Positions 1,596-22,181 of a stretch of DNA of 46,221 nt are shown piece after piece (the stretch's first letter is position 1; each line of letters begins with the position of its first letter). Source of the DNA: Fibrobacter sp. (GTDB lineage Bacteria; Fibrobacterota; Fibrobacteria; Fibrobacterales; Fibrobacteraceae); NCBI GenBank assembly GCA_024399065.1, contig JAKSIB010000027.1:1-46221 (forward strand), in the 5' to 3' direction. The notes beneath the pieces were generated by a model, which worked only from the letters and a program-made list of their open reading frames with translations, had not been told where the DNA came from and ran no database searches. The translations under genes and the position numbers were made by a program.

Positions 1596-3740
1596 TTGTT
1601 TAAGTATTTCAAGTCCGTCGTTAGTTTGTGTGCGCTGCTTGGTGCCACGTCTTCCTTCGCCTATGTGGAAAAGATGCCCGATTTCAAGGACAAACGCGAC
1701 GGTCGTGTCTATAAGACGGTTCAGATCGGTCAGCAGCGCTGGTTTGCCGAGAACCTCCGTTTTAGCCTGAAGGGCAGTTACTGTTACGAAAAGAAAGACT
1801 ACAACTGCGAAACCTACGGCCGCCTTTACACCTGGGCCCAGGCCCGCATGCTGGTAGATTACTACAACAGCACCTCCATCAAGAAGATCAAGCAGATCAA
1901 CAAGGTTCACGACATTTGCCCTATGGGCTGGCACATTCCCTCCAATAAGGAATGGAAGACCATGAAGGCCTACGTGGGTAAGCTTGGCATTAGCGACGGT
2001 GTTGGCATTAGCCTCAAGTCCCCGGAACTGTGGGAAAAGGAACTGCGCCTTCCTGCTGGTAGCGATGAATTTGGCTTCAGTGCGCTCCCTGCCGGTGAAC
2101 GCTACTTTATGGGCGAGTACATGGACCAGGGTTCCTCCGCCCAGTTCTGGGCCTCCAACGAATACGATGCTGGCGGTGGCTATTTCTGGCGCCTTTCCTA
2201 CGATTCCAGAACCTTGGACCGCATTTACGAAAGCAAGGAAAACGCTGTTTCCATCCGCTGCATCGAAGACAAGCTTTACGAAATCAAGGAACCTCCTTCT
2301 CCTGTGCCTCATATCGAGCCCAAGGTGGTTGAAGTCCAGGGTCGCAAGCTGCAGACCGTGCATATCGGCGACCAGGTGTGGATGGCCAACAACGTAGATA
2401 CCAAGGTTCCGGGCAGTTACTGCTACGAGAACAAGGAAGAAAACTGCCAGAAGTATGGCCGTCTGTACCCGTGGACAGCCGTGGTGAAGCTTGCCGCCGA
2501 GTACACGAACAAGGTGGCCCGCGACTCCATTTCCAAGGTGAAGCCCAAGGGCATTTGCCCCAACGGCTGGCATGTACCTACCGCACGCGACTACTATCGA
2601 CTGGATTCCTACCTGAAGGATATTGACGATGCCGTGGGCGTGGGCACCAACCTGAAGTCCCGTACCGGCTGGAACGAAAGCGACGACGCCCTGCAGGGGA
2701 TCAACGGCTTCGGCTTCAACGCGGAACCTTTCGGCGTCATCAAGTACGGCGAACCCAAGATGATCTGCGAAACCATCATCAAGGACATTATCCTGCCCGA
2801 AAAGAAGGGCGCACAGCCTGACACCATTTTGACGGACTCCTGCGTGGTGGATCCTGAATGGAAACCGGCGCTGGCATTCACCGCCCACGGGAACTTTACG
2901 GGATTCTGGTCCGGCACCGAGGCGGATACTACGACCGCCGTGGTCTGGAAGCTTTCCAACGACGAAGACGACTTTATCCAGGATTCCGCCAAGAAGGAAG
3001 AAGCCTACTACCTGCGCTGCATCATGGACCCGCCGGATATCGACGAAATCTATGATAGCACTTCCATCTACGACAAGCGCGACGATAACCGCTACAAGAC
3101 TGTGGTGGTGGGCGAAGATACCTGGATGGCCGAGAACCTGCGCTTTGCGGCTCCGGGCAGCTACTGCTACGAAGACAAGGATATCCGCTGCAAGTCCTAC
3201 GGACGCTTGTATCCGTGGCATGTGGCTATGAGATTGCCTGAAAACTACATCGATGAATCCATGACCGGCATGATCCTGGAAGAACATCAGGGTATTTGCC
3301 CCGACGGCTGGCATATTCCTACGAACAACGAATGGATTGCCCTGGGCCAGAAGGCCTTGAACATGCGTAGGGGAGGAATCGGTTCCGCCCTGAAGAGCAA
3401 GGAAGGCTGGGTCCGCGGTGGCGCCCCCATTTCTGCAGTAAGCGGATTCAACGCCCTTCCGTCGGGTAGCCGTTTTGCGGAAGGCGAGTATGCGGAACTT
3501 GGAACTAGCGCCTACTTCTGGGCTGCCCAGGGCGGCGACGGAAACGGTGCTGTGTACTGGAACATCATCAATTCCAAGGACGACTTTACGCCCATGGAAG
3601 ACTTCGACAAGTTCTCCTTCTCTTTGAGATGCGTGAAGAACAAGGCCGCCGCGGAAAAACCTGTCGCGGAAAAAGCCGCCGCGGAAAAACCTGTCGCGGA
3701 AAAAGCTGCCGCGGAAAAAGCTGCCGCGGAAAAACAGTAA
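1596..3740 (+). CDS. secreted protein with three FISUMP domains
   Basis: The start is TTG at 1596, chosen because AGGAGG (1584-1589) lies 6 bases upstream and a clean signal peptide follows (LFKYFKSVVSLCALLGATSS, cleavage after SFA). The frame is open upstream but without support. The 714-residue product holds three tandem FISUMP domains, each opening with a KRDGRVYKTVQIG or RKLQTVHIG-like strand and QxW-M/F-A-N, continuing with SYCYE, YGRLYxW and CPxGWHxP, and ending in RCI/RCV. The C-terminus is a charged six-fold pentapeptide repeat (AAAEK/PVAEK). The family is abundant and secreted in Fibrobacter but has no established biochemical role; a surface or cell-envelope role is inference. It appears to be monocistronic, with a promoter before it and a terminator after it. 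Confidence 0.88.
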   Translation: MFKYFKSVVSLCALLGATSSFAYVEKMPDFKDKRDGRVYKTVQIGQQRWFAENLRFSLKGSYCYEKKDYNCETYGRLYTWAQARMLVDYYNSTSIKKIKQINKVHDICPMGWHIPSNKEWKTMKAYVGKLGISDGVGISLKSPELWEKELRLPAGSDEFGFSALPAGERYFMGEYMDQGSSAQFWASNEYDAGGGYFWRLSYDSRTLDRIYESKENAVSIRCIEDKLYEIKEPPSPVPHIEPKVVEVQGRKLQTVHIGDQVWMANNVDTKVPGSYCYENKEENCQKYGRLYPWTAVVKLAAEYTNKVARDSISKVKPKGICPNGWHVPTARDYYRLDSYLKDIDDAVGVGTNLKSRTGWNESDDALQGINGFGFNAEPFGVIKYGEPKMICETIIKDIILPEKKGAQPDTILTDSCVVDPEWKPALAFTAHGNFTGFWSGTEADTTTAVVWKLSNDEDDFIQDSAKKEEAYYLRCIMDPPDIDEIYDSTSIYDKRDDNRYKTVVVGEDTWMAENLRFAAPGSYCYEDKDIRCKSYGRLYPWHVAMRLPENYIDESMTGMILEEHQGICPDGWHIPTNNEWIALGQKALNMRRGGIGSALKSKEGWVRGGAPISAVSGFNALPSGSRFAEGEYAELGTSAYFWAAQGGDGNGAVYWNIINSKDDFTPMEDFDKFSFSLRCVKNKAAAEKPVAEKAAAEKPVAEKAAAEKAAAEKQ
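3645..3734 (+). repeat. six 15-bp in-frame repeats
   Basis: Six consecutive 15-bp units GCCGCCGCGGAAAAA / CCTGTCGCGGAAAAA encode AAAEK and PVAEK pentapeptides just before the stop codon of the triple-FISUMP gene. The order is A-P-A-P-A-A. Such a tract can change copy number by slippage without breaking the frame. Confidence 0.9.
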
Positions 3741-4048: not shown

Positions 4049-6289
<2,241 letters not shown>

Positions 6290-6311
6290 TTAGGAGGCGT
6301 GGAAAGATTCA

Positions 6312-8360
6312 ATGCAGCTGAAGAACGGTGCAAATTACTTGAAGGTTTTGGCATGGATTTTACTCCTGCTGTTGTCGGCCTGTGGCAACGACGACACGAG
6401 CCTTGTTGATTCCGTTCAAGTGGATGCTATCGAATCTTCCGCTACGAACCAAGCCTCCTCTTCCAGCAAGCGCGCGGAACGAGTCTGCGTCACCATCAAC
6501 GGCGTGCTGAACGACTGCAGCACGGGTACCCCGCTGGACACTGCCGCCAACCAGCTGGAAAGTTCCTCCAGCCTTGGCCCCGACCAGATGATGGATGAAC
6601 GCGACGGCAAAATCTACAAGATCGTGACTATCGGCCACCAGGTATGGCTTGCCGAAAACATGCGCTACTGGCGCTCCGACATCGCATCGGGAACCTATAT
6701 CGTCAGCAACCGCATGGGCTACTACTACAGCCAGGAAACCGCCAAAAAGGTTTGCCCCATCGGCTGGCACTTGCCCTCCTTATCGGAATGGCAATTCCTC
6801 CTCAATTCCTTTGCCGCCAAGAGCGTCAGCGAAGACGGAAAAAATTACGTCTATGAGTACATGGGTACCATGCTCAAATCCAAGGACCTCTGGGACCCGC
6901 CCTATACTGGAGAAGACGAACTTGGATTCAACGCCCTGCCTGCAGGCTACACGGTTTACGAAGTACTTTTTAGCGAGGGCTCCGTGGCTGTATTCTGGAC
7001 CTCCACGCAGACGAAGTTTTATGGCATGAGTGCCGTGGTTGAAATGGATTCCGATCACGACTACGCGATGATCGACGAGGAATTTGATGAGTACGCCCTC
7101 TCTGTCCGCTGTATCTACGGCAAGGCGAAAGAGGATACTACCTCCGGCGACATTTTCCCTCCGAAAGTTTCCTCCAGCAGCGCGAAGTCCTCCAGTAGTG
7201 TAAAAACCGGATCCTCTTCCTCCTTCTGGGATGAAAGGTGGGAAGCCTTCGAGGACGACATCGGCACCGTCTACCCGTCCATCGTGATTGGAAAGCAGAA
7301 GTGGATGGCCCGCAACCTGGATTACAAAACACAATACATGGACCAGTCCTCCGCCATGCAGCTTTGCCCCACGGGTTGGCATCTGCCTACCGAAAGGGAA
7401 TGGGCCTACATGCTGTCCAGTTTTGCTGACCCCCGCAGCGAAGGCAGCAGCGTGTACTATAGCCATGTGGGCAGCAAACTCAAGTCTAGCGAAACTTGGG
7501 TGGGCAAGGACATTGGCTCCAATGAACTAGGCTTCGATGCCCGTGCCATAGGCTTCGTTAATGAGGACGGTGATACCCTTGGCATTGGCCAAACTGCGAA
7601 ATTCTGGACAGCATCTGCGTATGGTGATTCCGCCATCATCGTCCGCCTGGTAAATAACGACAACTACGCCGAAGTAACCAAGGAATATCCCAAGTCTAAG
7701 CTCCCTGTTCGTTGCGTAAGCGATGAGACTCTCTTTGAACTGAGCTCCTCCAGCTTATTTACCAGCAGCAGTTCCTCCGCCGCCGAAGTCAAGCCCGACG
7801 GCACCTACGATTGCTCCCCCTACTCCTATTACGACTGCATCACGACGGAGTACCTTGACCCTAATATGACCTACATGGATGTAATGGATGCCCGCGAGAA
7901 CAAGGTGTACAAGGCCATCCAGATTGACACCCTCTATTGGCTTGCCCAGAACCTGGACTATCATCAAAGTGGATGCTATAGTGCGACCATTGGTGAATTA
8001 GAGCTTAGCAACCATAAACTCTATGGCTATATGTACCCTTGGAAACAGGCCAAGGATGCCTGCATGGCGGGATGGCGAATTCCTACCAAGGCTGAATACG
8101 AAGCCTTGTTTGAAAAAATATCTGTAGGTGATGAGCTTGGTCTGGCGATCCGACCCACAGGATATGGTGTAGAGGGCGAGGAAGGATATGTAGATGCGGG
8201 CACCAAAGCTTATTTCTGGACATCCACAGAATACGTTTACTATGCCTTTAAAGATGAGTTTGTTGCCCAGTATGATGTTTCGACAGGAAGGAGCGATGTT
8301 TCGTGGGCTTCGAAGCTCGAAAACCTCATGGCAGTACGTTGCGTTCGCGAGGTGAACTAG
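6312..8360 (+). CDS. lipoprotein with three FISUMP domains
   Basis: The start is ATG 6312; TAGGAGG (6291-6297) lies upstream at a long spacing of about 14 bases. A lipoprotein signal follows (YLKVLAWILLLLLSAC, lipobox LSAC), then a Ser-rich linker and three FISUMP domains. The domains are separated by poly-Ser linkers (KVSSSSAKSSSSVKTGSSSS and SSSSLFTSSSSSAAEV). Each domain shows the DxRDG/EDDIGTVYP start, WLAENM or WMARNL, CPxGWHLP (CMAGWRIP in the third) and an RC(I/V) end. The product is 682 residues, probably anchored to the outer membrane or surface. It converges with the next gene, the two stop codons overlapping by 4 bp. The substrate is unknown. Confidence 0.88.
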   Translation: MQLKNGANYLKVLAWILLLLLSACGNDDTSLVDSVQVDAIESSATNQASSSSKRAERVCVTINGVLNDCSTGTPLDTAANQLESSSSLGPDQMMDERDGKIYKIVTIGHQVWLAENMRYWRSDIASGTYIVSNRMGYYYSQETAKKVCPIGWHLPSLSEWQFLLNSFAAKSVSEDGKNYVYEYMGTMLKSKDLWDPPYTGEDELGFNALPAGYTVYEVLFSEGSVAVFWTSTQTKFYGMSAVVEMDSDHDYAMIDEEFDEYALSVRCIYGKAKEDTTSGDIFPPKVSSSSAKSSSSVKTGSSSSFWDERWEAFEDDIGTVYPSIVIGKQKWMARNLDYKTQYMDQSSAMQLCPTGWHLPTEREWAYMLSSFADPRSEGSSVYYSHVGSKLKSSETWVGKDIGSNELGFDARAIGFVNEDGDTLGIGQTAKFWTASAYGDSAIIVRLVNNDNYAEVTKEYPKSKLPVRCVSDETLFELSSSSLFTSSSSSAAEVKPDGTYDCSPYSYYDCITTEYLDPNMTYMDVMDARENKVYKAIQIDTLYWLAQNLDYHQSGCYSATIGELELSNHKLYGYMYPWKQAKDACMAGWRIPTKAEYEALFEKISVGDELGLAIRPTGYGVEGEEGYVDAGTKAYFWTSTEYVYYAFKDEFVAQYDVSTGRSDVSWASKLENLMAVRCVREVN

Positions 8361-11855: not shown

Positions 11856-12680
11856 ATGGTAAAGCTCAATATTGCCCTGGGTGTACTGGGATTTGGTCTG
11901 CTGGCAGCTTCCTGCAGCGATAATATCACCAACAACTACTACGAATCCGAAGCTAGGGTAGATACCCTGGTGGTGCTGGATACCATACACCAGATCGATA
12001 CCATCCATTCTATCGACACCCTGTACATCAGCGAGCACGATACCATCCACTCCATCGACACCCTGGTGGGTCTCAACGGACTTTCCGCCTACGAAATCGC
12101 CGTGAAGAACGGCTACGAAGGCTCCGAGGAAGAATGGGTGAAGAACACCATCTTCAGTTTCGTGAAGGACGACCGCGACGAGCAGGCCTACAAGACCGTG
12201 CGTATCGGTAACCAGGTGTGGATGGCCGAAGATATTGCCTACCGAATCCCCGAAGGCGGCGATGGAGCTTACTCCTGGTCCGAGGCCAAGGAAGACGCCT
12301 GCTTCGACGGCTGGCACCTGCCTAGCGAAGGCGACTGGGAAGACCTTTTCGACTACATTGGCGGTAGCGAGGTTGCCGGTGTTCTTCTGAGATCCACCGA
12401 CGCATGGCGCACCATCGAGAACAAGACCGATTCCTACACGACCGACTTCAAGGGCGTGGACGCCTACGGCTTTAACGTAAAGCCCATCGACGAACGCAAT
12501 ACCAACAATTCCACCATGGCAGTGACCCTGAAGTCCACCAAGTACTGGACCTCCACCAAGGCCAAGGAAGGTGGTGACGGCAAGGTGGTGGTATTCAGCG
12601 GTGACCGCGACGCCGTTACGGTTACTGCAGGCGACTCCGACGACACTTACGCCGTTCGCTGCCTGAAAGACTCCGAATAA
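11856..12680 (+). CDS. FISUMP-domain lipoprotein with DTIHxIDT repeats
   Basis: The 274 residues start at ATG 11856 after a TAGGATGGAG motif. The lipoprotein signal has lipobox LAASC. A spacer follows with near-repeats DTIHQIDTIHSIDTL and DTIHSIDTLVGL, then the linker motif LSAYEIAVKNGYEGSEEEW. A single FISUMP domain closes the protein: DRDEQAYKTVRIGNQVWMAE, CFDGWHLP, YWTSTKAKE and final YAVRCLKD. A repetitive stalk with a terminal domain suggests surface presentation away from the membrane. The TTACGGGAAAAA motif seen near other genes in this window occurs upstream at about 11755. It is followed at 6 bp by the acyltransferase gene and may be cotranscribed with it. Confidence 0.85.
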   Translation: MVKLNIALGVLGFGLLAASCSDNITNNYYESEARVDTLVVLDTIHQIDTIHSIDTLYISEHDTIHSIDTLVGLNGLSAYEIAVKNGYEGSEEEWVKNTIFSFVKDDRDEQAYKTVRIGNQVWMAEDIAYRIPEGGDGAYSWSEAKEDACFDGWHLPSEGDWEDLFDYIGGSEVAGVLLRSTDAWRTIENKTDSYTTDFKGVDAYGFNVKPIDERNTNNSTMAVTLKSTKYWTSTKAKEGGDGKVVVFSGDRDAVTVTAGDSDDTYAVRCLKDSE

Positions 12681-12686
12681 TCATTT

Positions 12687-13826
12687 ATGGAAAAGAACAT
12701 AACGCCGGATACCTTCCTCTCGAAAGATGACACCAAGGTCATGAAGGCCTTTGCCATCTGCCTTATGCTCATGCACCACTTGTGGTGCTTCCCGAACCGC
12801 CTGGCAGGGGAACCCCTCATCAACCTCTCCACGGTTTTCGGTGTCTCCTCCCCGGTATTCTTCGGCTTCTTCGGAAAGATCTGCGTTTCCATGTTCTTTT
12901 TCCTGGGCGGCTATGGCGTATACAAGAGCTATTTCGGCCGCAAGTTCGACCTTGTGGGCAAGCTGAAGGGCCTCTACTTTGCCTACTGGAAGGTGTTCCT
13001 GATCTTTATCCCAATTGGATTCATTTTCTTCTCTGACCAGGGGAACTATTGCCTGGATCCTTTCATTTGCACCAGGTTCTCCACCTTCTCCACCCGTGAG
13101 CTTATCTCCAACTTTTTGGGATTCACCTCCACCTACAATAGGGAATGGTGGTTCCTGAGCAGCTATGCCTTTGCCCTGGTGACCTTCCCGTTCATCCGTG
13201 GCGTTATCGACAGGCATACCGCCCGCATGAACCTCTTCTTGATGCTCATCGTGAGCCTGCTGATGGTGAACGTTTTCCCGGGCCTGGCCCAGAACCAGAC
13301 CATCGGCGTGCTGGCCAATAACCGTATCTACCTGAAGTTCTTCTGCCAGATCGCGCCCTACGCCACCAGCTTCTGGATGGGTGCCATTGTTGCAAGGAGC
13401 GGCCTGCTGGATCGCCTACACGAAGGCCTCAGGGCTCACAACCTGCTGAACCCGGCCTTTGATATCCTGGTATGGGTGGCTGTGATTTTCCTGAGGCAGC
13501 TTGAGCTTGGCGAAGTGTTCGATATCTTCTTTATCCCTGTGCTTACCGTGGTGACCATTGACCTGGTGAACCGAATCAAGCTGGTGCGCAAGGGTTGCAT
13601 TCTCGTTGGCAAGCAGAGCACAAACATGTGGCTTACCCACACGTTCTTCTGCTATTATATCGGCGCCCTTTCTGCGGTGGTGACCGCTCCCAGGTACGCC
13701 ATCTTGTCGCTTCCGGTGCTGATCGCCCTTACCTTTGTGTGCTCATATGCCATCAACTACTTCTGGAAAGGAGTGGGCATGGGCTACGGCAAGGTGAAGG
13801 AACTTATTTGTGGAAAGGTACAGTAA
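12687..13826 (+). CDS. acyltransferase-3 family integral membrane protein
   Basis: The 379 residues carry about ten hydrophobic segments. The N-terminal DTKVMKAFAICLMLMHHLW contains the His of the acyltransferase-3 (OafA/NodX-like) family, followed by FFFLGGYGVYKSYF and EWWFLSSYAFALVTFPFI. Family members transfer acetyl or other acyl groups from a cytoplasmic donor to sugars or lipids of the envelope. The acceptor cannot be read from sequence. It starts 6 bp after the FISUMP lipoprotein stop with no clear ribosome binding site of its own, suggesting coupling. Its 3' end overlaps the convergent lipoprotein gene by 23 bp. Confidence 0.8.
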   Translation: MEKNITPDTFLSKDDTKVMKAFAICLMLMHHLWCFPNRLAGEPLINLSTVFGVSSPVFFGFFGKICVSMFFFLGGYGVYKSYFGRKFDLVGKLKGLYFAYWKVFLIFIPIGFIFFSDQGNYCLDPFICTRFSTFSTRELISNFLGFTSTYNREWWFLSSYAFALVTFPFIRGVIDRHTARMNLFLMLIVSLLMVNVFPGLAQNQTIGVLANNRIYLKFFCQIAPYATSFWMGAIVARSGLLDRLHEGLRAHNLLNPAFDILVWVAVIFLRQLELGEVFDIFFIPVLTVVTIDLVNRIKLVRKGCILVGKQSTNMWLTHTFFCYYIGALSAVVTAPRYAILSLPVLIALTFVCSYAINYFWKGVGMGYGKVKELICGKVQ

Positions 13827-14964
13827 CCAGGCAACCGCCGTTGTAAGGTCCAACGGACATAATATGGAATCGGCCTCTGGTGCCGTTTGCACCCTGGATC
13901 TTGAAGGTGACTGTTCCGATCTGCTTGGCGGCTTCTTCGCCAGTTAGAGTTGCGGAACCTGTCGGAACCAATTCGCTCCAGGCAACATTCTCGACTCGGC
14001 CTGTGGTATCGGCGGGCAGAACCTTAGATACCCCGGAGCTCAGTTCAAGAATTATGGGGTCGTCGGAGTAATAGGATACGCAGAGCCCGCCCCAGGAAGA
14101 AGCATCAACAACAAAGGGCTTGCCGTTATCATCTTCACCGCCGATGTTGAAGTTCAGGGACACGTAGGGGTCCTTGTCTAAGGAATGTTTTTCCAATTGG
14201 TAGGAGCCGCATATGCCGAGGCATTCTTCGATAATGGGGTCAAGGGATCCAATGAAGCCTAGATCTGTCGTGATAGGCCAGATGGTGAGGGAGGCGCCAC
14301 CTTCCTTACTGTCGTGTCCACTGATCCAGTAGCCAGATGTTTCGTTGCCCTCGTCGCAGTGGGTATTCATCTGGTACAGGCACATGTCGCCAAACCAGGT
14401 ATCCATAATGCCACAAGGGCTGCCGGGAGTATGGGGCTTCTGCGTCCAAACCAGCGAACCATTCCAGCCTCTTTCGCAAAAGTACTCGATGGAGGGGTTG
14501 ACCTTGCCGTGGGTGGTTGCCCCTTCTACGCATTCTATGCCGTAGGTGTCAATCTGGCTTTGGAGAGCTGCCTCCCAGTTGGGCTTGGAATACTTGGTGC
14601 ATTCATAGTAGCGGTCTTCGTGGAGCGCCATTGTTCCAAATTTTTCCTCGGTGCATTCGCCAAGGGCCTTCGTGACATTCTCGTAGTAGTAGGGGCCAAA
14701 ATCCCAAGATGAGGAGGAGAACGGGGGCTTGACAGATGAACTTGAAATTTCTGCGACAGGTGCGCTGGAGGAGCTCGGGGGCTCAACAGATGAACTTGAA
14801 ATTTCTGCGACAGGTGCGCTGGAGGAACTCGGGGGCTCGACAGATGAACTTGAAATTTCTGCGACAGGTGCGCTGGAGGAACTCGGGTTGTCGGAACAGC
14901 CTGCAAGCATGGAACCTGCCAGTGCTGCAACAAAAGCCGTGGTCAAGAAACGATTTGTTCTCAT
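13804..14964 (-). CDS. lipoprotein with tandem Ser/Pro linker repeats
   Basis: The start at ATG 14964 is supported by GGGAG about 7 bases upstream. The lipoprotein signal (TTAFVAALAGSMLAGC, lipobox LAGC) is followed by three 18-residue repeats of the type SSSSAPVAEISSSSVEPP, then a globular region of about 300 residues containing several Cys (ECVEGATTHGK, YFCERGWNGSLVW, DTWFGDMCLYQ). A late strand region (LNFNIGGEDDNGKPFVVDAS) looks like a carbohydrate-binding-type beta-sandwich, but I cannot name a family. Ser-rich linkers between modules are common in Fibrobacter surface proteins. It is monocistronic and convergent with the acyltransferase gene. Confidence 0.75.
   Translation of the reverse strand: MRTNRFLTTAFVAALAGSMLAGCSDNPSSSSAPVAEISSSSVEPPSSSSAPVAEISSSSVEPPSSSSAPVAEISSSSVKPPFSSSSWDFGPYYYENVTKALGECTEEKFGTMALHEDRYYECTKYSKPNWEAALQSQIDTYGIECVEGATTHGKVNPSIEYFCERGWNGSLVWTQKPHTPGSPCGIMDTWFGDMCLYQMNTHCDEGNETSGYWISGHDSKEGGASLTIWPITTDLGFIGSLDPIIEECLGICGSYQLEKHSLDKDPYVSLNFNIGGEDDNGKPFVVDASSWGGLCVSYYSDDPIILELSSGVSKVLPADTTGRVENVAWSELVPTGSATLTGEEAAKQIGTVTFKIQGANGTRGRFHIMSVGPYNGGCLVTVPFHK
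14732..14887. repeat. three 54-bp in-frame tandem repeats
   Basis: Three near-identical 54-bp units (starts 14732, 14786, 14840; the third slightly short) encode the 18-residue Ser/Pro linker of the lipoprotein on the minus strand. Differences are single bases only, suggesting recent expansion. Confidence 0.9.
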
Positions 14965-15002
14965 ATAAACTCCCAAAAAGTTTTACAATCCTTGAAAATA
15001 TA

Positions 15003-15038
15003 TATAAAAAACATCCCGACATCGCTTAGATGCCGGGA
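15003..15038 (-). terminator. intrinsic terminator of the DUF6261-like gene
   Basis: On the minus strand: TCCCGGCATC, loop TAAGC, GATGTCGGGA, then TGTTTTTTAT. One mismatch in a 10-bp stem. Confidence 0.8.
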
Positions 15039-15077
15039 CTTTTGTCTCCTTCTAACGTTTTATATGTATTGTGTAGA

Positions 15078-15899
15078 TCATGCTGCATTTTCTACACCCA
15101 CCGTGGAATCATTGTCCGTGGTGGGGGCGGCATTGTTCGCCGCTTCATTGTTCGCCGCAGTTTCTGTGGCTTCGGTAGTCGCAGCGTTTTCTGCTTTTTC
15201 CTTCTTTTTAGGTTTCTGGCGCATCTTGAGCTGCACCTTCTTTGCGATTACAATCTTGTCCATGCATTCGAGGAAGTTGCTGCAACTTTCGCTTCCTTCG
15301 GCAGCCTTGAAGAATGCCGCACCTACCAAGATGTTGTATGCCTTGATGCAGGCGGCGCGCAAAATCTTGCAGTTCTCGATTTCCTTCTGGCAGCGCTTGG
15401 AGAATCTGGCGAGATCGGCTTCCATGAACTGGCGGTTTGCTGTTTCGAGTCGTTCTGCCCATTCCTTGAATCCGCAGGCGGCGAGCTTTTCTTCGTCAAA
15501 TACCTTGAGCCCCTGGATGATACTGTCGAAGATACCTGTAGATTTCGCCTGGTTCGCCTTGATGGGGGAGGGGGTGGAATCGAACAGCTTGCTGATCTGT
15601 TCGCCGATTTCAGCGACGCTTGCATCGGGAATCTTGGTGGCGGCCATAGCCACCTTGCGGCTCGCCACGTAAATATCGTTTCGTTCGATGTCAAGATCAT
15701 GAGCCTTCTTTTCCACGGAGTCGGTGAAGCTTGCCTTCAGGAATTCGGAAAGAGCGTTCACGGAACTTTCGTATTCTGCGACAGCCTTTTGAACATCCTT
15801 GTCTGTGATTGCCTTGGCGAGATTCACGCCTTCGGAATGGAGGCCCTTGAATTCGTCGTTGTGGAGGAGGGAGAAGGTGATAGAAGTAATCATTTTCAT
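15078..15899 (-). CDS. DUF6261-like helical protein
   Basis: The 273 residues begin MKMITSITFSLLHNDEF, which resembles the start of DUF6261 proteins found in Bacteroidota and Fibrobacterota (I..I.F.LLHN). The body is almost entirely helical, and the C-terminus changes to a basic stretch (QLKMRQKPKKKEKAEN) followed by an Ala/Thr/Asn-rich low-complexity tail. No signal peptide or membrane segment is visible, so a cytoplasmic location is likely. The gene is monocistronic with its own terminator. Function unknown; some DUF6261 genes lie near mobile elements, and here an Rpn nuclease locus is adjacent, but a link is only inference. Confidence 0.6.
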   Translation of the reverse strand: MKMITSITFSLLHNDEFKGLHSEGVNLAKAITDKDVQKAVAEYESSVNALSEFLKASFTDSVEKKAHDLDIERNDIYVASRKVAMAATKIPDASVAEIGEQISKLFDSTPSPIKANQAKSTGIFDSIIQGLKVFDEEKLAACGFKEWAERLETANRQFMEADLARFSKRCQKEIENCKILRAACIKAYNILVGAAFFKAAEGSESCSNFLECMDKIVIAKKVQLKMRQKPKKKEKAENAATTEATETAANNEAANNAAPTTDNDSTVGVENAA

Positions 15900-16121
15900 A
15901 TTAGAAACCTCGTTTTGAGAGTTTGTTTATGTTTCAGCTTTCGTGTTCACCGTTTGGGTGTTCCGCGTCGGCCTTGAGAATAAACTACGAAGTTCGAATG
16001 TCTCAGATGGTCACGATTGTGTAAAAGTTTATGTTAGTTTTGTCACGTTTGTGTCACGTTTTGACCATTGTATGACAATGTATTTTTGTTGTCATTCATT
16101 TTTTTTGAGGAGCATCGTTTT

Positions 16122-16664
16122 GAATTTGATATGGTGCTCCGACTTTTTGCATAGTTATGATTTAGAAATGAACTGGCGCTCCGACTTTTGGAAAAGTTCC
16201 GTTTTGGAATTGAAATGGTGTTCCAACTTTTGGAAAAGTTCCATTTTAGAAATGAACTGGCGCTCCGACTTTTGGAAAAGTTCCGTTTTGGAATTGAACT
16301 GGTGTTCCAACTTTTGGAAAAGTTGCGTTTTAGAAATGAACTGACGCTCCGACTTATGGAAAAGTTCCATTTTAGAATTGAAATGGCGCTCCGACTTTTA
16401 GAAAAGTTCCATTTTGGAATTGAACTGGCGCTCCGACTTTTGGAAAAGTTCCATTTTAGAATTGAACTGGTGTTCCAACTTTTGGAAAAGTTCCGTTTTA
16501 AAATTGAACTGACGCTCCGACTTATGGAAAAGTTCCGTTTTGAAATTGAAAAGACTCTCCGACTTATGGAAAAGTTCCATTTTAGAATTGAAATGACGCT
16601 CCGACTTATGGAAAAGTTCCATTTTAAAACTGAAATGATGCTCCGATTTTTTATGAAGAACGAG
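16122..16664. repeat. 42-bp tandem repeat array, about 12-13 units
   Basis: Eleven full 42-bp units start at 16165, 16207, 16249 and so on to 16585, with degenerate units at both ends (16122 and 16627). The shared core is CTTTTGGAAAAGTTCC followed by RTTTTR and GAAWTGAAMTG. Two unit types alternate: GCGCTCCGAC (most) and GTGTTCCAAC (units 2, 4 and 8), which differ at three linked positions. The core is nearly self-complementary. The unit length is 14 codons, so several frames on both strands stay open and give 14-residue repeats (for example LLEKFHFRNELALR on plus, KTELFQKLEHQFNS on minus). None has a convincing ribosome binding site. Confidence 0.92.
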
Positions 16665-16707
16665 ATTTTTTTGTGCTGAACAATAATTTTTTTTGACAAC
16701 TACGAAA

Positions 16708-16757
16708 TTTTTTACAAAAATATCGTGCCGATTCAGACATTTCCTGCGTGTATATAT
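16708..16757 (+). promoter_or_regulatory. upstream block shared by the two Rpn genes, copy 1
   Basis: TTTTTTACAAAAA, about 16 variable bases, then CAGACATTTCCTGCGTGT (16734-16751) and TATATA. The same arrangement, with the 18-bp part identical, occurs at 18478-18529 in front of the second Rpn gene, though the coding sequences that follow are unrelated at the start. A shared promoter or protein site is likely; I cannot assign -35 and -10 boxes with confidence. Confidence 0.5.
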
Positions 16758-16847
16758 GCGGATAGGATGTTCATCCTTTTCCGCCGTGCATGTGCCCGGC
16801 GCAGGGCCGCCAGCGAAATCGGCAGGTAGCCAGGAACAAAGAAGATA

Positions 16848-17768
16848 ATGACAAAGAATTTGGATCACGATAAATTCTTCAAGACGGCGCTGGGCAAACC
16901 CGAACGTGCCGCCCAGCTGCTCCGCCTTGCAGCAAAGCATAACGAGGGACTGCAGGATTTCCTTGCGGCAGTGAATCTTGATACCTTGCAGCCCATGCCC
17001 GGCGAGGCAACCCGCGAGGGACTCTCGGGTGCATCCGACCTTACGTTCCGTGTGAACTTGAGGGGCTCCGAACAGATGGCGAATCTTCACGTGGGCGTGC
17101 TTCTGGAGCACAAGTCCTACGAGGATCACGATGTTCTGCAGCAACTGATGAAGTATTATTTCGAGGTTATCCTGCAGAAGGCTGGGAACATTCCGACTGT
17201 TGCAATCATCGTTTACAACGGCAGTGACGACTGGAACCCGATTACGGACCCCAGCTACGCAACTCCCTACCCAGAATATCCTGCTTACTTTAACAAGGTG
17301 GGATACCCGTTCATCTGCGAGTTCATTGACGTGGGCGATGAAATCGATACGGTGGACTTTGCGAATGCGGACCCTCAGCTTGCTTTGGCTCTCGTTGCCA
17401 TGCGTTACGCATTTGAACCTAGCGAACGCGAACGTTTCCTCGCTGCGCTGAAGGCCTTCAAGGCTTTGGGTCGCGAAGGTGCCCTTGACTTCCTCAAGGA
17501 GGTATATGTATATTTGCGCAAGGTAATTCCCGTAAAGGATAAGGAGCTGTTCATGGATACCGAAGAAGTCTTGCGCAATAAGGGCTACAAGTCTATTTCC
17601 GACGCCGACATCGAACTCGGTGAACAGAGGGGTATTGAAAAGACCAAACTTGAGGACGCCGAGGCGTTCCTCCGTGACGGAGACCCTGTCGATCGTGTTG
17701 CTCGAGTCCTTAAGCTCCCTCTCGAAACGGTGCAGGCCATCGCCGACAGGATTGCGAAACCGGCTTGA
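16848..17768 (+). CDS. Rpn family PD-(D/E)XK nuclease, Transposase_31 (PF04754) type
   Basis: The 306-residue product matches the YhgA/RpnA-like layout: an N-terminal HDKFFKTALGKPERAAQLL segment, then the nuclease core with Asp in SDLTFRV and the E-x-K pair in HVGVLLEHKSYEDHD, then VAIIVYNGSDDWNP. Rpn proteins are DNA endonucleases that promote RecA-independent recombination. The last 40 residues (from KLEDAEAFLRDGDPVDRVAR on) match the end of the second Rpn gene at 18576 almost exactly, though the rest of the two proteins differs. A hairpin terminator and a small gene follow, also duplicated downstream. ATG 16848 has only a weak AAGAAG site. Confidence 0.85.
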   Translation: MTKNLDHDKFFKTALGKPERAAQLLRLAAKHNEGLQDFLAAVNLDTLQPMPGEATREGLSGASDLTFRVNLRGSEQMANLHVGVLLEHKSYEDHDVLQQLMKYYFEVILQKAGNIPTVAIIVYNGSDDWNPITDPSYATPYPEYPAYFNKVGYPFICEFIDVGDEIDTVDFANADPQLALALVAMRYAFEPSERERFLAALKAFKALGREGALDFLKEVYVYLRKVIPVKDKELFMDTEEVLRNKGYKSISDADIELGEQRGIEKTKLEDAEAFLRDGDPVDRVARVLKLPLETVQAIADRIAKPA

Positions 17769-17788
17769 AACCGTCGCTAGCATTTGTT

Positions 17789-17823
17789 GAAATCCCCGGG
17801 GCGTATACCCTGGGGTTTCTTTA
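17789..17823 (+). terminator. terminator between Rpn gene 1 and its companion
   Basis: GAAATCCCCGGG, short loop, CCCTGGGGTTTC, then TTTATT. An identical copy is at 19526-19560. Confidence 0.7.
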
Positions 17824-17896
17824 TTGTCGCCTGCTGAGCGACAAAAAATGCACCTCGGGAAGTTACATTAGTGGAAATTTTAGAAACGAGGTGATT

Positions 17897-18418
17897 ATGA
17901 CAGCCCAGGTCCACGAAAAACTGATTCTCAACGGCAAAAGAACATCCATGGCGTTCTGCCCGCCGATTCCCGATTCACCCGAAATCCTTACAAGGCTCAC
18001 CGATGAGGAGGTTCGCGAGAAAATGGCCGCCGGTAAAATCGACGGCATCATCTATTCCACGGCATGCTGGAGAGGCTATATCGGCACCTGGGAAATCAAG
18101 GACGACAAGTTCTACCTAAAGAAAATTGATGGGGCGGTTCGCCTTGCCAAAAAGGAACCTATTCAGGCCACCTGGTTTACGGGGGTGCTCAGGATTCCCC
18201 AGGGCAAGGAACTGCACTATGTGCACATGGGCTTCGGCTCCATCTACGAAAGGGATCTGCTGATTAAAATCCAGGAAGGCGTGGTGGTGGATCAGAAAGT
18301 CATCGACAACACCGATAAGGCCAAAAAGGCTGAAAACCAGAGCATCGAGGAACAGTTCCTTGAAAGCTTCAGGAACATGCCCGGCAACGAAAACCACTTT
18401 GACGGTGATGATATGTAA
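17897..18418 (+). CDS. Rpn-cassette companion protein, copy 1 (unknown function)
   Basis: The start at ATG 17897 follows ACGAGGTG, 6 bases upstream. The frame is open further back through a terminator, so earlier starts are unlikely. The product has 173 residues with no signal peptide or membrane segment. It contains the stretches TSMAFCPPIPDSPEILTRL and CWRGYIGTWEIKDDKFYLKK, and an acidic C-terminus (NENHFDGDDM). No named family was recognised. The GYIGTWEI-x-KFYL strand pair suggests a small beta domain. It is encoded in an exact second copy at 19634-20155. In both places it follows an Rpn-family nuclease gene after a terminator and ends in another terminator, so it appears to be an independently expressed partner. 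Confidence 0.7.
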   Translation: MTAQVHEKLILNGKRTSMAFCPPIPDSPEILTRLTDEEVREKMAAGKIDGIIYSTACWRGYIGTWEIKDDKFYLKKIDGAVRLAKKEPIQATWFTGVLRIPQGKELHYVHMGFGSIYERDLLIKIQEGVVVDQKVIDNTDKAKKAENQSIEEQFLESFRNMPGNENHFDGDDM

Positions 18419-18435
18419 CGAATTTTGTGTTGTGT

Positions 18436-18470
18436 CGGGAACCCCGGGGCGAGAGCTTCGGGGTTCTTTT
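18436..18470 (+). terminator. terminator of companion gene copy 1
   Basis: GAACCCCGGGGCGAGAGCTTCGGGGTTC: GAACCCCG pairs with CGGGGTTC around an 11-12 base loop, then TTTTTT. Confidence 0.8.
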
Positions 18471-18477
18471 TTGCACT

Positions 18478-18529
18478 TTTTTTACAAAAAACATGGGGTC
18501 GTTCCAGACATTTCCTGCGTGTTATAGAA
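18478..18529 (+). promoter_or_regulatory. upstream block shared by the two Rpn genes, copy 2
   Basis: TTTTTACAAAAAA, a variable stretch, then CAGACATTTCCTGCGTGT (18505-18522) and TTATAG. It is the counterpart of 16708-16757 and lies about 50 bp before the strong ribosome binding site of the second Rpn gene. Confidence 0.5.
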
Positions 18530-18575
18530 GGCGGGTCACAAGCCTGCAAAAATTCTATAACCGATAGGAGGTGAA

Positions 18576-19505
18576 ATGAACAAAATTCAGTTTAGGGCCA
18601 TGGCCCTAGATTTGAAGGCCAATCCGCAGAAACTTGCGGAATACCGTAAGCAGTACAAGTATGTTTATCCGTTTAGTGACGGAATTTTCAAGATTCTTAT
18701 GGCCAACGAGGCGAAACCTGAACGTACCATCAAGTTTTTGAATGCAATGCTTGATCTTTCCGGTCCAAACGCAATCAGGTCTTTTACCCTGGGAGTCCAG
18801 GAGCAGCCCGGAATTCTTGACCAGAAAACCGCAATTTTTGATATCTATGGCACCACGGAGGGTGGGGCCCCCGTTCTCATTGAAGTTCAGCAGAATTTCA
18901 ATACTTTGTTTGTCGATCGTCTGGTTTATTACACTGCCCGCGTTATCAGTAATCAGGTGAAAAAGTCCCAGAGTTACGATTTGCCGCATATTTACGTGCT
19001 TTCGCTGCTGTGCGAAAACCAGTTCCCTCGGGAAAAGGATGCCTATCTGCACCATTGCCTGATCTTGCGGAACCGCATGTATCCTTTCAAGAAGATTGAC
19101 GTGCTGCTTGTGGAAATGAATAAGTTCTTTGCCATCGATGACCGAACCCCGCCCGAAAAGCGCGAGACTAACGACAGGGCGGAAATGCTGCGCATGTTCC
19201 GCGACGTTTTGGAGGATAAGACCATTGACGAAGAAAAAGCAGCAAGGCTCCTTGACAGCGACTTCGTAAAAGATGTAAATTTTGAAGGGTTTACCGATGA
19301 ACTTTTACTCTTGGAGGTTGATGGAATGACTGATTTGCTTTACGAAAAGCAGGGCTCCTACCTGCAGGGCAAGGAGGAAGGTAAGCTTGAGGATGCCGAG
19401 GCGCTCCTCCGTGACGGAGACCCTGTCGATCGTGTTGCTCGAGTCCTTAAGCTCCCTCTCGAAACGGTGCAGGCCATCGCCGACAGGATTGCGAAACCGG
19501 CTTGA
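18576..19505 (+). CDS. Rpn family PD-(D/E)XK nuclease, PDDEXK_2 (PF12784) type
   Basis: The ATG at 18576 has an excellent site (ATAGGAGGTG). The 309 residues fit the PDDEXK_2 transposase-like family: YPFSDGIFKILMANEAKPER, TIKFLNAMLD, catalytic Asp in AIFDIYG, E-x-Q in VLIEVQQNFN, then DRLVYYTARVISNQVKKSQSY and HIYVLSLL. It belongs to a different subfamily from the neighbour at 16848. Yet its last 40 residues (KLEDAEALLRDGDPVDRVAR and onward) are almost identical to that protein, and the DNA downstream is an exact copy. The C-terminal module may be a shared targeting or oligomerisation piece; such short helical tails are common in this family. Confidence 0.87.
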   Translation: MNKIQFRAMALDLKANPQKLAEYRKQYKYVYPFSDGIFKILMANEAKPERTIKFLNAMLDLSGPNAIRSFTLGVQEQPGILDQKTAIFDIYGTTEGGAPVLIEVQQNFNTLFVDRLVYYTARVISNQVKKSQSYDLPHIYVLSLLCENQFPREKDAYLHHCLILRNRMYPFKKIDVLLVEMNKFFAIDDRTPPEKRETNDRAEMLRMFRDVLEDKTIDEEKAARLLDSDFVKDVNFEGFTDELLLLEVDGMTDLLYEKQGSYLQGKEEGKLEDAEALLRDGDPVDRVARVLKLPLETVQAIADRIAKPA

Positions 19506-19525
19506 AACCGTCGCTAGCATTTGTT

Positions 19526-19560
19526 GAAATCCCCGGGGCGTATACCCTGGGGTTTCTTTA
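19526..19560 (+). terminator. terminator between Rpn gene 2 and its companion
   Basis: Exact copy of the hairpin at 17789-17823. Confidence 0.7.
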
Positions 19561-19633
19561 TTGTCGCCTGCTGAGCGACAAAAAATGCACCTCGGGAAGT
19601 TACATTAGTGGAAATTTTAGAAACGAGGTGATT

Positions 19634-20155
19634 ATGACAGCCCAGGTCCACGAAAAACTGATTCTCAACGGCAAAAGAACATCCATGGCGTTCTGCCCGC
19701 CGATTCCCGATTCACCCGAAATCCTTACAAGGCTCACCGATGAGGAGGTTCGCGAGAAAATGGCCGCCGGTAAAATCGACGGCATCATCTATTCCACGGC
19801 ATGCTGGAGAGGCTATATCGGCACCTGGGAAATCAAGGACGACAAGTTCTACCTAAAGAAAATTGATGGGGCGGTTCGCCTTGCCAAAAAGGAACCTATT
19901 CAGGCCACCTGGTTTACGGGGGTGCTCAGGATTCCCCAGGGCAAGGAACTGCACTATGTGCACATGGGCTTCGGCTCCATCTACGAAAGGGATCTGCTGA
20001 TTAAAATCCAGGAAGGCGTGGTGGTGGATCAGAAAGTCATCGACAACACCGATAAGGCCAAAAAGGCTGAAAACCAGAGCATCGAGGAACAGTTCCTTGA
20101 AAGCTTCAGGAACATGCCCGGCAACGAAAACCACTTTGACGGTGATGATATGTAA
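19634..20155 (+). CDS. Rpn-cassette companion protein, copy 2
   Basis: It encodes the same 173-residue protein as 17897-18418 with no amino acid change, using the same ACGAGGTG ribosome binding site. Perfect identity means either very recent duplication or continuing gene conversion. No family was recognised; no signal peptide, membrane segment or clear catalytic motif is visible. A terminator of the same design as in copy 1 follows directly. Confidence 0.7.
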   Translation: MTAQVHEKLILNGKRTSMAFCPPIPDSPEILTRLTDEEVREKMAAGKIDGIIYSTACWRGYIGTWEIKDDKFYLKKIDGAVRLAKKEPIQATWFTGVLRIPQGKELHYVHMGFGSIYERDLLIKIQEGVVVDQKVIDNTDKAKKAENQSIEEQFLESFRNMPGNENHFDGDDM

Positions 20156-20173
20156 CGAATTTTGTGTTGTGTC

Positions 20174-20208
20174 GGGGAACCCCGGGGCGAGAGCTTCGGG
20201 GTTTCTTT
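20174..20208 (+). terminator. terminator of companion gene copy 2
   Basis: GAACCCCG, loop, CGGGGTTTC, then TTTTG. It differs from copy 1 by one extra G before and one extra T after the stem. Confidence 0.75.
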
Positions 20209-20509
20209 TGTGTCGTTTATTGTAAAAATTAGATGGTTTCTGACACGGCACTTTGTGCAGAAAGAATTTTTACTCTAGAGCAATAAAGAAAAAGGCTGCC
20301 GCAGCCGGCATTCCGTACCAAACATATGTAAATGTTTTGCTGGAATATCGATGAAAATGGTTGCGAGTTCTTGTAGGCCCGCGAACTGCAAGGTGCGCTG
20401 GAATATAAGGATAGGGGAATTGGCCGACTACCAAAACCCATTATTCCATTTATTATGTCGAAGCCGTCAAATTTGTTGGATTTGGTTTTTTCCGTTTTAA
20501 GGGGAAGCA
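20209..20509. other. non-coding gap after the Rpn cassette
   Basis: No gene is visible in these 301 bases. A minus-strand hairpin GGCTGCGGCAGCC followed by TTTTTC lies at 20289-20306 and could terminate transcripts coming from the minus-strand genes to the right. Confidence 0.5.
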
Positions 20510-20623
20510 ATGGGAAATCAATTGTTTATCGAATCTCGCTTATCAGAAGCAAAGAACCTTTGCTGCAAGATATGTGATAGCTTTGATGTTTTGAACAGTC
20601 TTGATGAAGATGGTGTAAAATGA
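20510..20623 (+). CDS. small 37-residue ORF, possibly the front of a broken gene pair
   Basis: ATG 20510 follows AAGGGGAAGC, a good ribosome binding site. The product (MGNQLFIESRLSEAKNLCCK and onward to LNSLDEDGVK) has a CCKIC cluster. Its TGA overlaps the ATG at 20620 (ATGA), where a second frame begins MIDEEDNAKILSGK and then runs antisense through the end of the next minus-strand gene. The ATGA coupling is typical of real operons, so the second gene may once have been longer and been cut off at about 20645. Function unknown. Confidence 0.4.
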   Translation: MGNQLFIESRLSEAKNLCCKICDSFDVLNSLDEDGVK

Positions 20624-20649
20624 TTGATGAAGAAGATAATGCTAAAATT

Positions 20650-20979
20650 CTATCCGGCAAGCTGGTCGATCAGGTACTTGACCTGCTTGACCATGGCCTC
20701 GGCGGTTTTCTTGTAGTCTTTGTTCACCTTGGCCAGGTAGGCGTCGGTTTTGATCTTGAAGTTCTCGTTATGCTCGCCCTGGAGCACGGTGGGGTAGGCC
20801 CCGATCTTCAGGGATTCCGCAAACAGCTCCTTCAGCACCCTCAGCTTCTTCTTGGGCGGATAGGCCATCTGCATGTAGTAGGCCACGCTTATTTTCGCAA
20901 GGTGCTGCATCACGTAGCTCAGGTCGAGTTCGTTGGGAGCGACCACGTAGTTCCTTAGTGAAGATATAAGTGCCTGCAT
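20650..20979 (-). CDS. hypothetical helical protein, possibly a C-terminal fragment
   Basis: The frame is open back to a TTG at 21063, but the region before ATG 20979 reads like non-coding sequence, and neither start has a clear ribosome binding site. From 20979 the product has 109 residues, mostly helical: PNELDLSYVMQHLAKISVAY, then PPKKKLRVLKELF, then AEAMVKQVKYLIDQLAG. No family was recognised. Its helix pattern and missing start suggest the tail of a larger protein, or a small four-helix-bundle-like protein. It sits between two sequence joins in an AT-rich patchwork. Confidence 0.4.
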   Translation of the reverse strand: MQALISSLRNYVVAPNELDLSYVMQHLAKISVAYYMQMAYPPKKKLRVLKELFAESLKIGAYPTVLQGEHNENFKIKTDAYLAKVNKDYKKTAEAMVKQVKYLIDQLAG

Positions 20980-21074
20980 AATGGGTGCAAAGATAGCTAA
21001 TGCGGGATCACCCGAGCCTTTTTTATTTTTGAGATTTCTCTTACCGGCTTTCCTGAATAGCAATTTCTCTTTTC

Positions 21075-22181
21075 CTATGTATTTTCTTTCCTAAAAAGAA
21101 GCATTCTATTTAGGTATTTTTCCAAAACTTCCATATAGTTTTCGTTAGATGAAATTTCTCTTAGTGTTACTTTTCCATTTTCATCTTTGTTAATCTCGTT
21201 GACGTCAACATTCCATATTGGATGTGCTAGAATTTCCTTTGCTATGGTAACATCGTATCTTTGAGTATAGAAACGAATTTTCGCATTTAGTTTTTCATCA
21301 AAGATTATTTCTAAATGTGGCAACCTAGGAGAGTTTGGATTTTGTTTTCCATGTTCTATGGGGTTTAAATAAAAATCGCATGATTTCTCGCTATAGCTCT
21401 GGCCAAATCCCATTCTTCTTTTTTTTATTGTATTATGGATGTCTTGCACAATTTTATGTGCCGGATGACGCCTTGCCAAGGTTTCTAGTTTTGGATAAAC
21501 ACTTTTCAGTTCCTTCCATCTACAACATTCTTTATATGAATCCCATCCATTATTTCTAAAAGCTGAAGGATGCGTTATAGGATAAAAGACTGTATTTGGA
21601 TATTTTTGGTATTTAAAACATCCTAAATCCAGCAAGATATTATTCTCTATAATTCCATCAGGTTTTGGAAGATGATTTCTTAACCGTTTTCCCCATACGA
21701 TAACAATATCTGGATTAATTTGGGGCAAAATGATTTCAAAAAGATCGTTCTTCTCCTCGGTACAATTCTTGTCTTGTGGTAATTTGAATTCGTCAAATCT
21801 TTTTCCAACAAATTTCGTGAAATAATTGTAAAAACACAAATTATCCCAAATATAGTCGGCCTTTTTAGGGATTTCGCCAGAAATCATAGATGCAACTTTT
21901 CTGTAGCAATTGCAGAATCTTGCAACGCCAATATCTTTTGCTCGTTCTGAAAAAGAAGCTACTTTTTTTTCGTTATGACATTGATATGAATTTAAAAAGA
22001 CATCAATTGTGTTACTACAATCTATTGCTGCATTTTTTCCATAGTGAGATTCTCCTAAAGAAAGAACTTTTATTGGTACTTGGTTATAATTATCTCCAAT
22101 ATAGGGGAGAATATGTGGCTGGTTGTCACCAAAAAGATTTATTGCTCGATTGATAAATTTATTCCAATATTCAAGTTCCAT
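21075..22181 (-). CDS. probable uracil-DNA-glycosylase-fold protein
   Basis: The 368 residues are AT-rich in codon use and unlike the flanking genes. The N-terminal half reads like the UDG superfamily: VLSLGESHYGKNAA in the position of motif I, WDNLCFYNYF, then a strand INPDIVIVWGKRLRNHLP and the motif II-like ITHPSAFRNNGW. The second half (from about residue 240) is unrelated and ends in a charged tail. UDG-fold proteins of this divergent type include uncharacterised members in accessory regions, where a base-excision or nucleotide-sensing role is possible. The catalytic Asp/His arrangement cannot be confirmed by eye. It is next to a DUF262 fragment and a WYL regulator, so a defence context is plausible. 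Confidence 0.5.
   Translation of the reverse strand: MELEYWNKFINRAINLFGDNQPHILPYIGDNYNQVPIKVLSLGESHYGKNAAIDCSNTIDVFLNSYQCHNEKKVASFSERAKDIGVARFCNCYRKVASMISGEIPKKADYIWDNLCFYNYFTKFVGKRFDEFKLPQDKNCTEEKNDLFEIILPQINPDIVIVWGKRLRNHLPKPDGIIENNILLDLGCFKYQKYPNTVFYPITHPSAFRNNGWDSYKECCRWKELKSVYPKLETLARRHPAHKIVQDIHNTIKKRRMGFGQSYSEKSCDFYLNPIEHGKQNPNSPRLPHLEIIFDEKLNAKIRFYTQRYDVTIAKEILAHPIWNVDVNEINKDENGKVTLREISSNENYMEVLEKYLNRMLLFRKENT

Follow-up and report, generated by a model that had tools for sequence, protein, structure and literature searches.

Two Rpn-type nuclease genes with identical ends in Fibrobacter: a probable recent event in a recombining set of putative toxin-antitoxin genes

Introduction

Rpn genes are gene-within-gene toxin-antitoxins, and tandem duplication gives rise to their arrays (PMC10327210). 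In E. coli, an internal start allows separate production of the variable C-terminal domain of the Rpn nuclease, and this short product, RpnS, blocks the full-length nuclease (PMC10327210). The YhgA-like Transposase_31 proteins RpnA-RpnE combine a conserved core with a variable C-terminal tail (PMC5350276). According to the same paper, rpnC was apparently acquired twice at one syntenic site, and overproduction promotes RecA-independent recombination; we found no description there of tail exchange between subfamilies.

Among open-licence papers, we found no report of Rpn genes in Fibrobacter or of tail exchange between Rpn genes. Here we analyze a stretch of 46,221 nucleotides from Fibrobacter sp., hereafter the window, which is the whole contig C27 of genome G000 (3.82 Mb, 118 contigs), in a search set where the genus is represented by 80 genomes. 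The genes resemble RpnL/RpnS (PMC10327210; RpnA structure 7TH0) in having a putative PD-(D/E)XK nuclease, a variable C-terminal domain, and a predicted internal start with a ribosome site, and also in the solo RpnS genes found downstream in some strains and the arrays formed by tandem duplication. However, RpnL/RpnS variation consists chiefly of four-residue repeats, and the downstream RpnS copies group with their own gene (PMC10327210), whereas in Fibrobacter whole tails are exchanged, also between Pfam subfamilies, and an orphan tail can differ from that of the preceding gene. Our preferred reading, which we consider probable, is that these are members of a recombining set of Rpn toxin-antitoxin genes that reassort tails and cores, and that the window holds one very fresh event.

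Results and discussion

Two distant Rpn nucleases

The two nuclease genes carry cores from the Transposase_31 and PDDEXK_2 families (Table 1), as a preliminary description made from the sequence alone had recognized, and both matches exceed the Pfam cutoffs. The same description called the nucleases unrelated, which is overstated. Although the cores give no BLASTP match to each other at E up to 10, the Rpn model TIGR01784 matches both below its cutoff, and nucleases 1 and 2 are distant members of the Rpn group. Residues of the PD-(D/E)XK catalytic type (SDLTF..LLEHK and IFDIYG..IEVQ) were recognized by eye only.

Table 1. Positions of the features of the two Rpn units in the window.
Feature	Position	Strand	Remarks
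Upstream segment of unit 1	16708-16751	+	80% identical to 18479-18522
RpnL-type nuclease 1, Transposase_31 core, 306 aa	16848-17768	+	PF04754 E=2.2e-13; weak TIGR01784 match
Predicted internal antitoxin RpnS of nuclease 1, 71 aa	17553-17768	+	ATG codon 236, TAAGGAG 6 nt upstream
Shared 40-residue tail, copy 1	17646-17765	+	98% identical to copy 2
772-bp exact repeat, copy 1	17668-18439	+	Base-by-base comparison
Terminator-like hairpin, nuclease 1 to companion 1	17793-17822	+	-23.2 kcal/mol in its stretch, z -2.0
Companion gene, copy 1, 173 aa	17897-18418	+	Relatives in six bacterial lineages
Terminator-like hairpin after companion 1	18437-18475	+	z -3.8; exact repeat stops in its 5' arm
Upstream segment of unit 2	18479-18522	+	80% identical to 16708-16751; kept in G025:C4
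RpnL-type nuclease 2, PDDEXK_2 core, 309 aa	18576-19505	+	PF12784 E=9.4e-24; weak TIGR01784 match
Predicted internal antitoxin RpnS of nuclease 2, 59 aa	19326-19505	+	ATG codon 251, GGAGGT 7 nt upstream
Shared 40-residue tail, copy 2	19383-19502	+	98% identical to copy 1
772-bp exact repeat, copy 2	19405-20176	+	Base-by-base comparison
Terminator-like hairpin, nuclease 2 to companion 2	19530-19559	+	Same as 17793-17822
Companion gene, copy 2, 173 aa	19634-20155	+	Identical to copy 1
Terminator-like hairpin after companion 2	20174-20212	+	z -4.1; one pair longer

Part of the similarity between the upstream segments of the two units may reflect promoter consensus, since TTTCCTGCGTGT stretches of a related kind also stand before other Rpn genes. 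A single leader for all Rpn genes of the genus was considered and dropped, as only some of them have it. Directly upstream of unit 1 lies an array of 42-bp tandem repeats (window 16034-16705), and a similar array is found at the same place in contig C4 of the sister genome G025. Elsewhere in the window, a 35-nt segment occurs six times (737-771, 1714-1748, 2353-2387, 3097-3131, 6619-6653 and 12193-12227), and at least one copy encodes a TVRIGNQVWMA-like motif in an apparent lipoprotein. Contigs C3 and C4 of the window's genome (L012-L017) hold tandem arrays of Rpn-like genes of another subfamily, some of them truncated.

An exact repeat of 772 bp

The preliminary description had noted an apparently exact match of 772 bp, and the two copies indeed show 0 mismatches at an offset of 1737. 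Chance is excluded as the origin of this identity. On the left, homology begins at the codons KLEDAEA (17646/19383) and passes 3 mismatches before the exact block, and the last 40 residues are as nearly identical as had been described. On the right, one inserted base closes the exact block within a hairpin, which gives copy 2 one additional base pair, and homology continues through this terminator-like hairpin to about 18468/20206. Both copies contain the last nuclease codons, a terminator-like hairpin, the entire 173-aa companion ORF and the start of the second hairpin, in line with the terminator and complete companion gene of the preliminary description. Rfam gave no match at gathering thresholds in window 15500-21500. 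A reading as insertion sequence or transposon was dropped, as the window contains no inverted repeats of at least 30 nt; shorter ones are possible.

Exact repeats are a classic source of assembly error, and the assembly here has 118 contigs, of which the window is one in full. One tail-companion copy could have been used twice, or two differing copies merged, and the contigs of G025 break inside the same gene. Nevertheless, each copy is bordered by different sequence on every side, the two differ by one compensated base in the hairpin, and G025 has the hairpin and nuclease 2 at the same place. The order unique-repeat-unique-repeat-unique would also be the sole linear path through such a repeat. 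We therefore regard an artefact as the least probable of the explanations considered, with only a slight chance of being right.

Internal starts and predicted antitoxins

Both nuclease genes contain an internal ATG preceded by a ribosome site, from which an RpnS antitoxin would be made, and the shared tail is predicted to fall within this RpnS part in both. We scored the zone from 46 to 95 codons before the gene end. An ATG with a ribosome site was present in all 32 PDDEXK_2 relatives, against 15.2 expected from synonymous codon shuffling, and in 29 of 33 Transposase_31 relatives, against 11.4 expected. About one third to one half of the shuffled genes have such a site because the amino acids favour it. 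Across all Rpn families examined, a ribosome site precedes 78 of 147 ATGs inside the zone versus 22 of 487 in the remainder of the genes. In the L010-like and L030-like families, which have a related tail, no ATG with such a ribosome site was seen. The known RpnS fold is a three-helix bundle dimer; a sequence search of the PDB gave no Rpn match, and the 7TH0 antitoxin structure was not retrieved.

At two further loci, G036:C4:184878-185212 (L199) and G006:C26:1576 (L196), the PDDEXK_2 core is broken or missing while the RpnS part and its ribosome site are open, and we read these as predicted antitoxins retained after loss of the toxin.

Tails are exchanged between cores across the genus

The 32 PDDEXK_2 genes have a constant core as far as YEKQGSYLQGK, after which the tail is replaced wholesale. 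The median pairwise identity is 76% for the core versus 31% for the tail, and one core type carries 10 tail groups at 50% identity; in some pairs, the cores are 97% identical while the tails share 26-29% identity. Of 61 genomes of the genus, 12 carry tails related to those in the window, and these tails are attached to several core types. Two Rpn genes of the window's genome (C55 and C35) have weakly related cores and tail DNA that is 82% identical, and the genes at C39 and in G025 have unlike cores and 79% identical tail DNA. The relatives of gene 1 in G007 and G021, with cores 75% identical, end in a tail of quite different sequence with four-residue EGRA repeats, and no clear repeats of this kind are seen in the window genes. 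As far as these gene comparisons reach, tail exchange is general in the genus. The earlier proposal of cores exchanged before a constant tail, with breakpoints close to KLEDAEA, is supported by the tail replacement among the PDDEXK_2 relatives (n = 32), by the similar tails on several core types and by the C17 locus described below.

A plain tandem duplication of one Rpn-companion unit, in which the first core was later replaced or diverged very far, would involve no special modularity. Tandem duplication is the known origin of Rpn arrays (PMC10327210), and the two units are alike in their upstream segments as well as in their identical ends. However, divergence alone cannot give two Pfam families beside 772 identical bases, core replacement is itself a modular event, and tail/core mosaics occur across the genus. 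Tandem duplication on its own is thus an unlikely explanation, if the strongest of the rivals, and the route of the block would be compatible also with duplication followed by core replacement.

Orphan tails behind a copied internal start

In at least two loci, an additional tail that differs from that of the core is retained as an orphan antitoxin gene, preceded by a copied internal-start segment. At G006:C31, a stop codon closes the core with tail A; next comes a duplicate of GAGGTTGACGGAATGACGGACATG...CTGCAGGGAAA, which has a ribosome site of its own, and after this copied internal-start segment, tail B stands as a 62-aa gene. The internal-start segment before the orphan is an exact copy, and tail B is the core's own tail in G034 and its relatives. 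We infer that tail A displaced tail B in G006, although an extra solo tail may instead have been gained. The arrangement in G019 is similar, and G034:C16 may also carry a second tail in this way. Additionally, contig C48 of the window's genome contains solo RpnS-like genes.

The locus in a sister genome

Contig C4 of G025 matches window 12358-16709 at about 89% and then resumes at 18425-18687 with 94%. It lacks gene 1 and the first companion but has the hairpin and the beginning of gene 2. The repeat shows 0 differences in 772 bp, compared with 6-11% divergence from G025 in the same region; therefore, copying or homogenisation of the block took place long after the two genomes had separated. 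This supports the earlier suggestion of recent duplication or gene conversion. Gene 2 is tentatively favoured as the donor of the block because its relative in G025:C16 has a similar tail and the relatives of gene 1 do not.

Another locus points to exchange of cores at one site. The first 37 residues and the tail of a gene 2 relative are found at one end of G025:C2 and at the beginning of C16; the two contigs would join here, with the middle of the gene missing from the G025 assembly. Their flanks are 93-98% identical to G000:C17, where a different Rpn gene stands. Directly after that gene lies a scar, consisting of a 25-nt exact match to the gene 1 linker and a 30-nt exact match to the end of the G025 tail, with shuffled sequence reaching at most 12. 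This is most simply read as the trace of a Transposase_31 gene with a G025-type tail that formerly stood at the C17 site, and at least three Rpn types would therefore have occupied it.

The companion is a patchy passenger

The companion gave no match in Pfam, NCBIfam or PADLOC, and its best PHROG match has E=0.3. Its predicted structure is a fair model (pLDDT 80) whose best Foldseek match has E=0.1 and whose VIA Z is at most 3.1; we claim neither a function by fold nor a new fold. A phage origin was dropped, as there was no match in phage records and one distant relative in viral contigs. The gene is not confined to this pair. Within the genomes searched, its relatives in the genus are found only in G002, G028 and G011, and outside it they occur in five other lineages: Syntrophobacteraceae, Anaerolineales, Calditrichia, Sabulitectum and Neomarinimicrobiota. 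The Neomarinimicrobiota regions contain HNH, AAA-type and DUF2779 genes along with others that read as nuclease-like and have no Pfam match, and more distant relatives on plasmids adjoin DarT1-NADAR and a TOTE system. A distant relative on a small Klebsiella plasmid (L158:3535-5320) is followed immediately by a DarT1 toxin with its NADAR antitoxin. One Neomarinimicrobiota locus carries two companion copies (L041:1770-2069 and 5999-6298), 91% alike over 300 nt, each following a different nuclease-like gene and with a repeated 74-nt piece of the upstream DUF2779 gene; this arrangement resembles that of the window.

The companion follows both window nucleases and lies near conflict genes elsewhere (DarT1-NADAR and TOTE on plasmids, HNH and AAA-type in Neomarinimicrobiota), as expected if nuclease, tail and companion were an obligate three-part conflict module that moves together, with the companion as regulator or second antitoxin. 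Yet it is not beside an Rpn gene in G002, G028 or G011 (one relative in G011 is at a distance of about 5.4 kb), the tail often occurs in its absence, and a terminator-like hairpin separates it from the nuclease. We consider such a module very unlikely, and the constant partner of the preliminary description is not supported. Rather, we take the companion to be a conflict-associated passenger and not an obligate partner of the tail.

How tails and cores might be reassorted

In the recombining set of genes that we favour, each unit would be an Rpn toxin-antitoxin gene, with a PD-(D/E)XK nuclease toxin, RpnL, and its C-terminal part made alone from the internal start as RpnS. Recombination in the short segment at the internal start and just beyond it would join a core to a different tail, recombination around the ORF would set different cores before the same tail, and replaced tails may remain as solo RpnS genes. 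In the window, the tail, the downstream hairpin and the passenger companion would have been copied behind a second core, very recently, by homologous recombination or gene conversion between Rpn units. The full-length proteins would be toxic and their tails protective, possibly in defence against phages, and identical tails would let the two antitoxins cross-talk. A stronger version is doubtful: a diversification system in which cores and RpnS tails are reassorted via the duplicated internal-start segment, stimulated by the nucleases, with orphan antitoxins persisting and the companion as a further conflict component.

CDI and Rhs polymorphic toxins have a constant junction segment, exchangeable ends and displaced modules that are kept downstream, and the Fibrobacter genes resemble them in all of these. 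However, CDI/Rhs systems exchange the toxin end of a secreted protein together with an immunity gene, whereas in Fibrobacter it is an intracellular nuclease that exchanges its predicted antitoxin domain. The gene-within-gene organization of Rpn loci is known; what is new is the exchange of whole tails, also across subfamilies, with orphan tails retained.

Conclusion

The companion deserves attention as a conserved small protein family near several conflict systems. For the Rpn genes, our results suggest how an antitoxin encoded inside its own toxin can change, namely by swapping the whole gene end so that toxin and antitoxin change together, and the former antidote can survive as a gene of its own. 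The pair of different cores ending in one identical tail, together with near-identical cores carrying unlike tails, offers natural material for studying antitoxin specificity.
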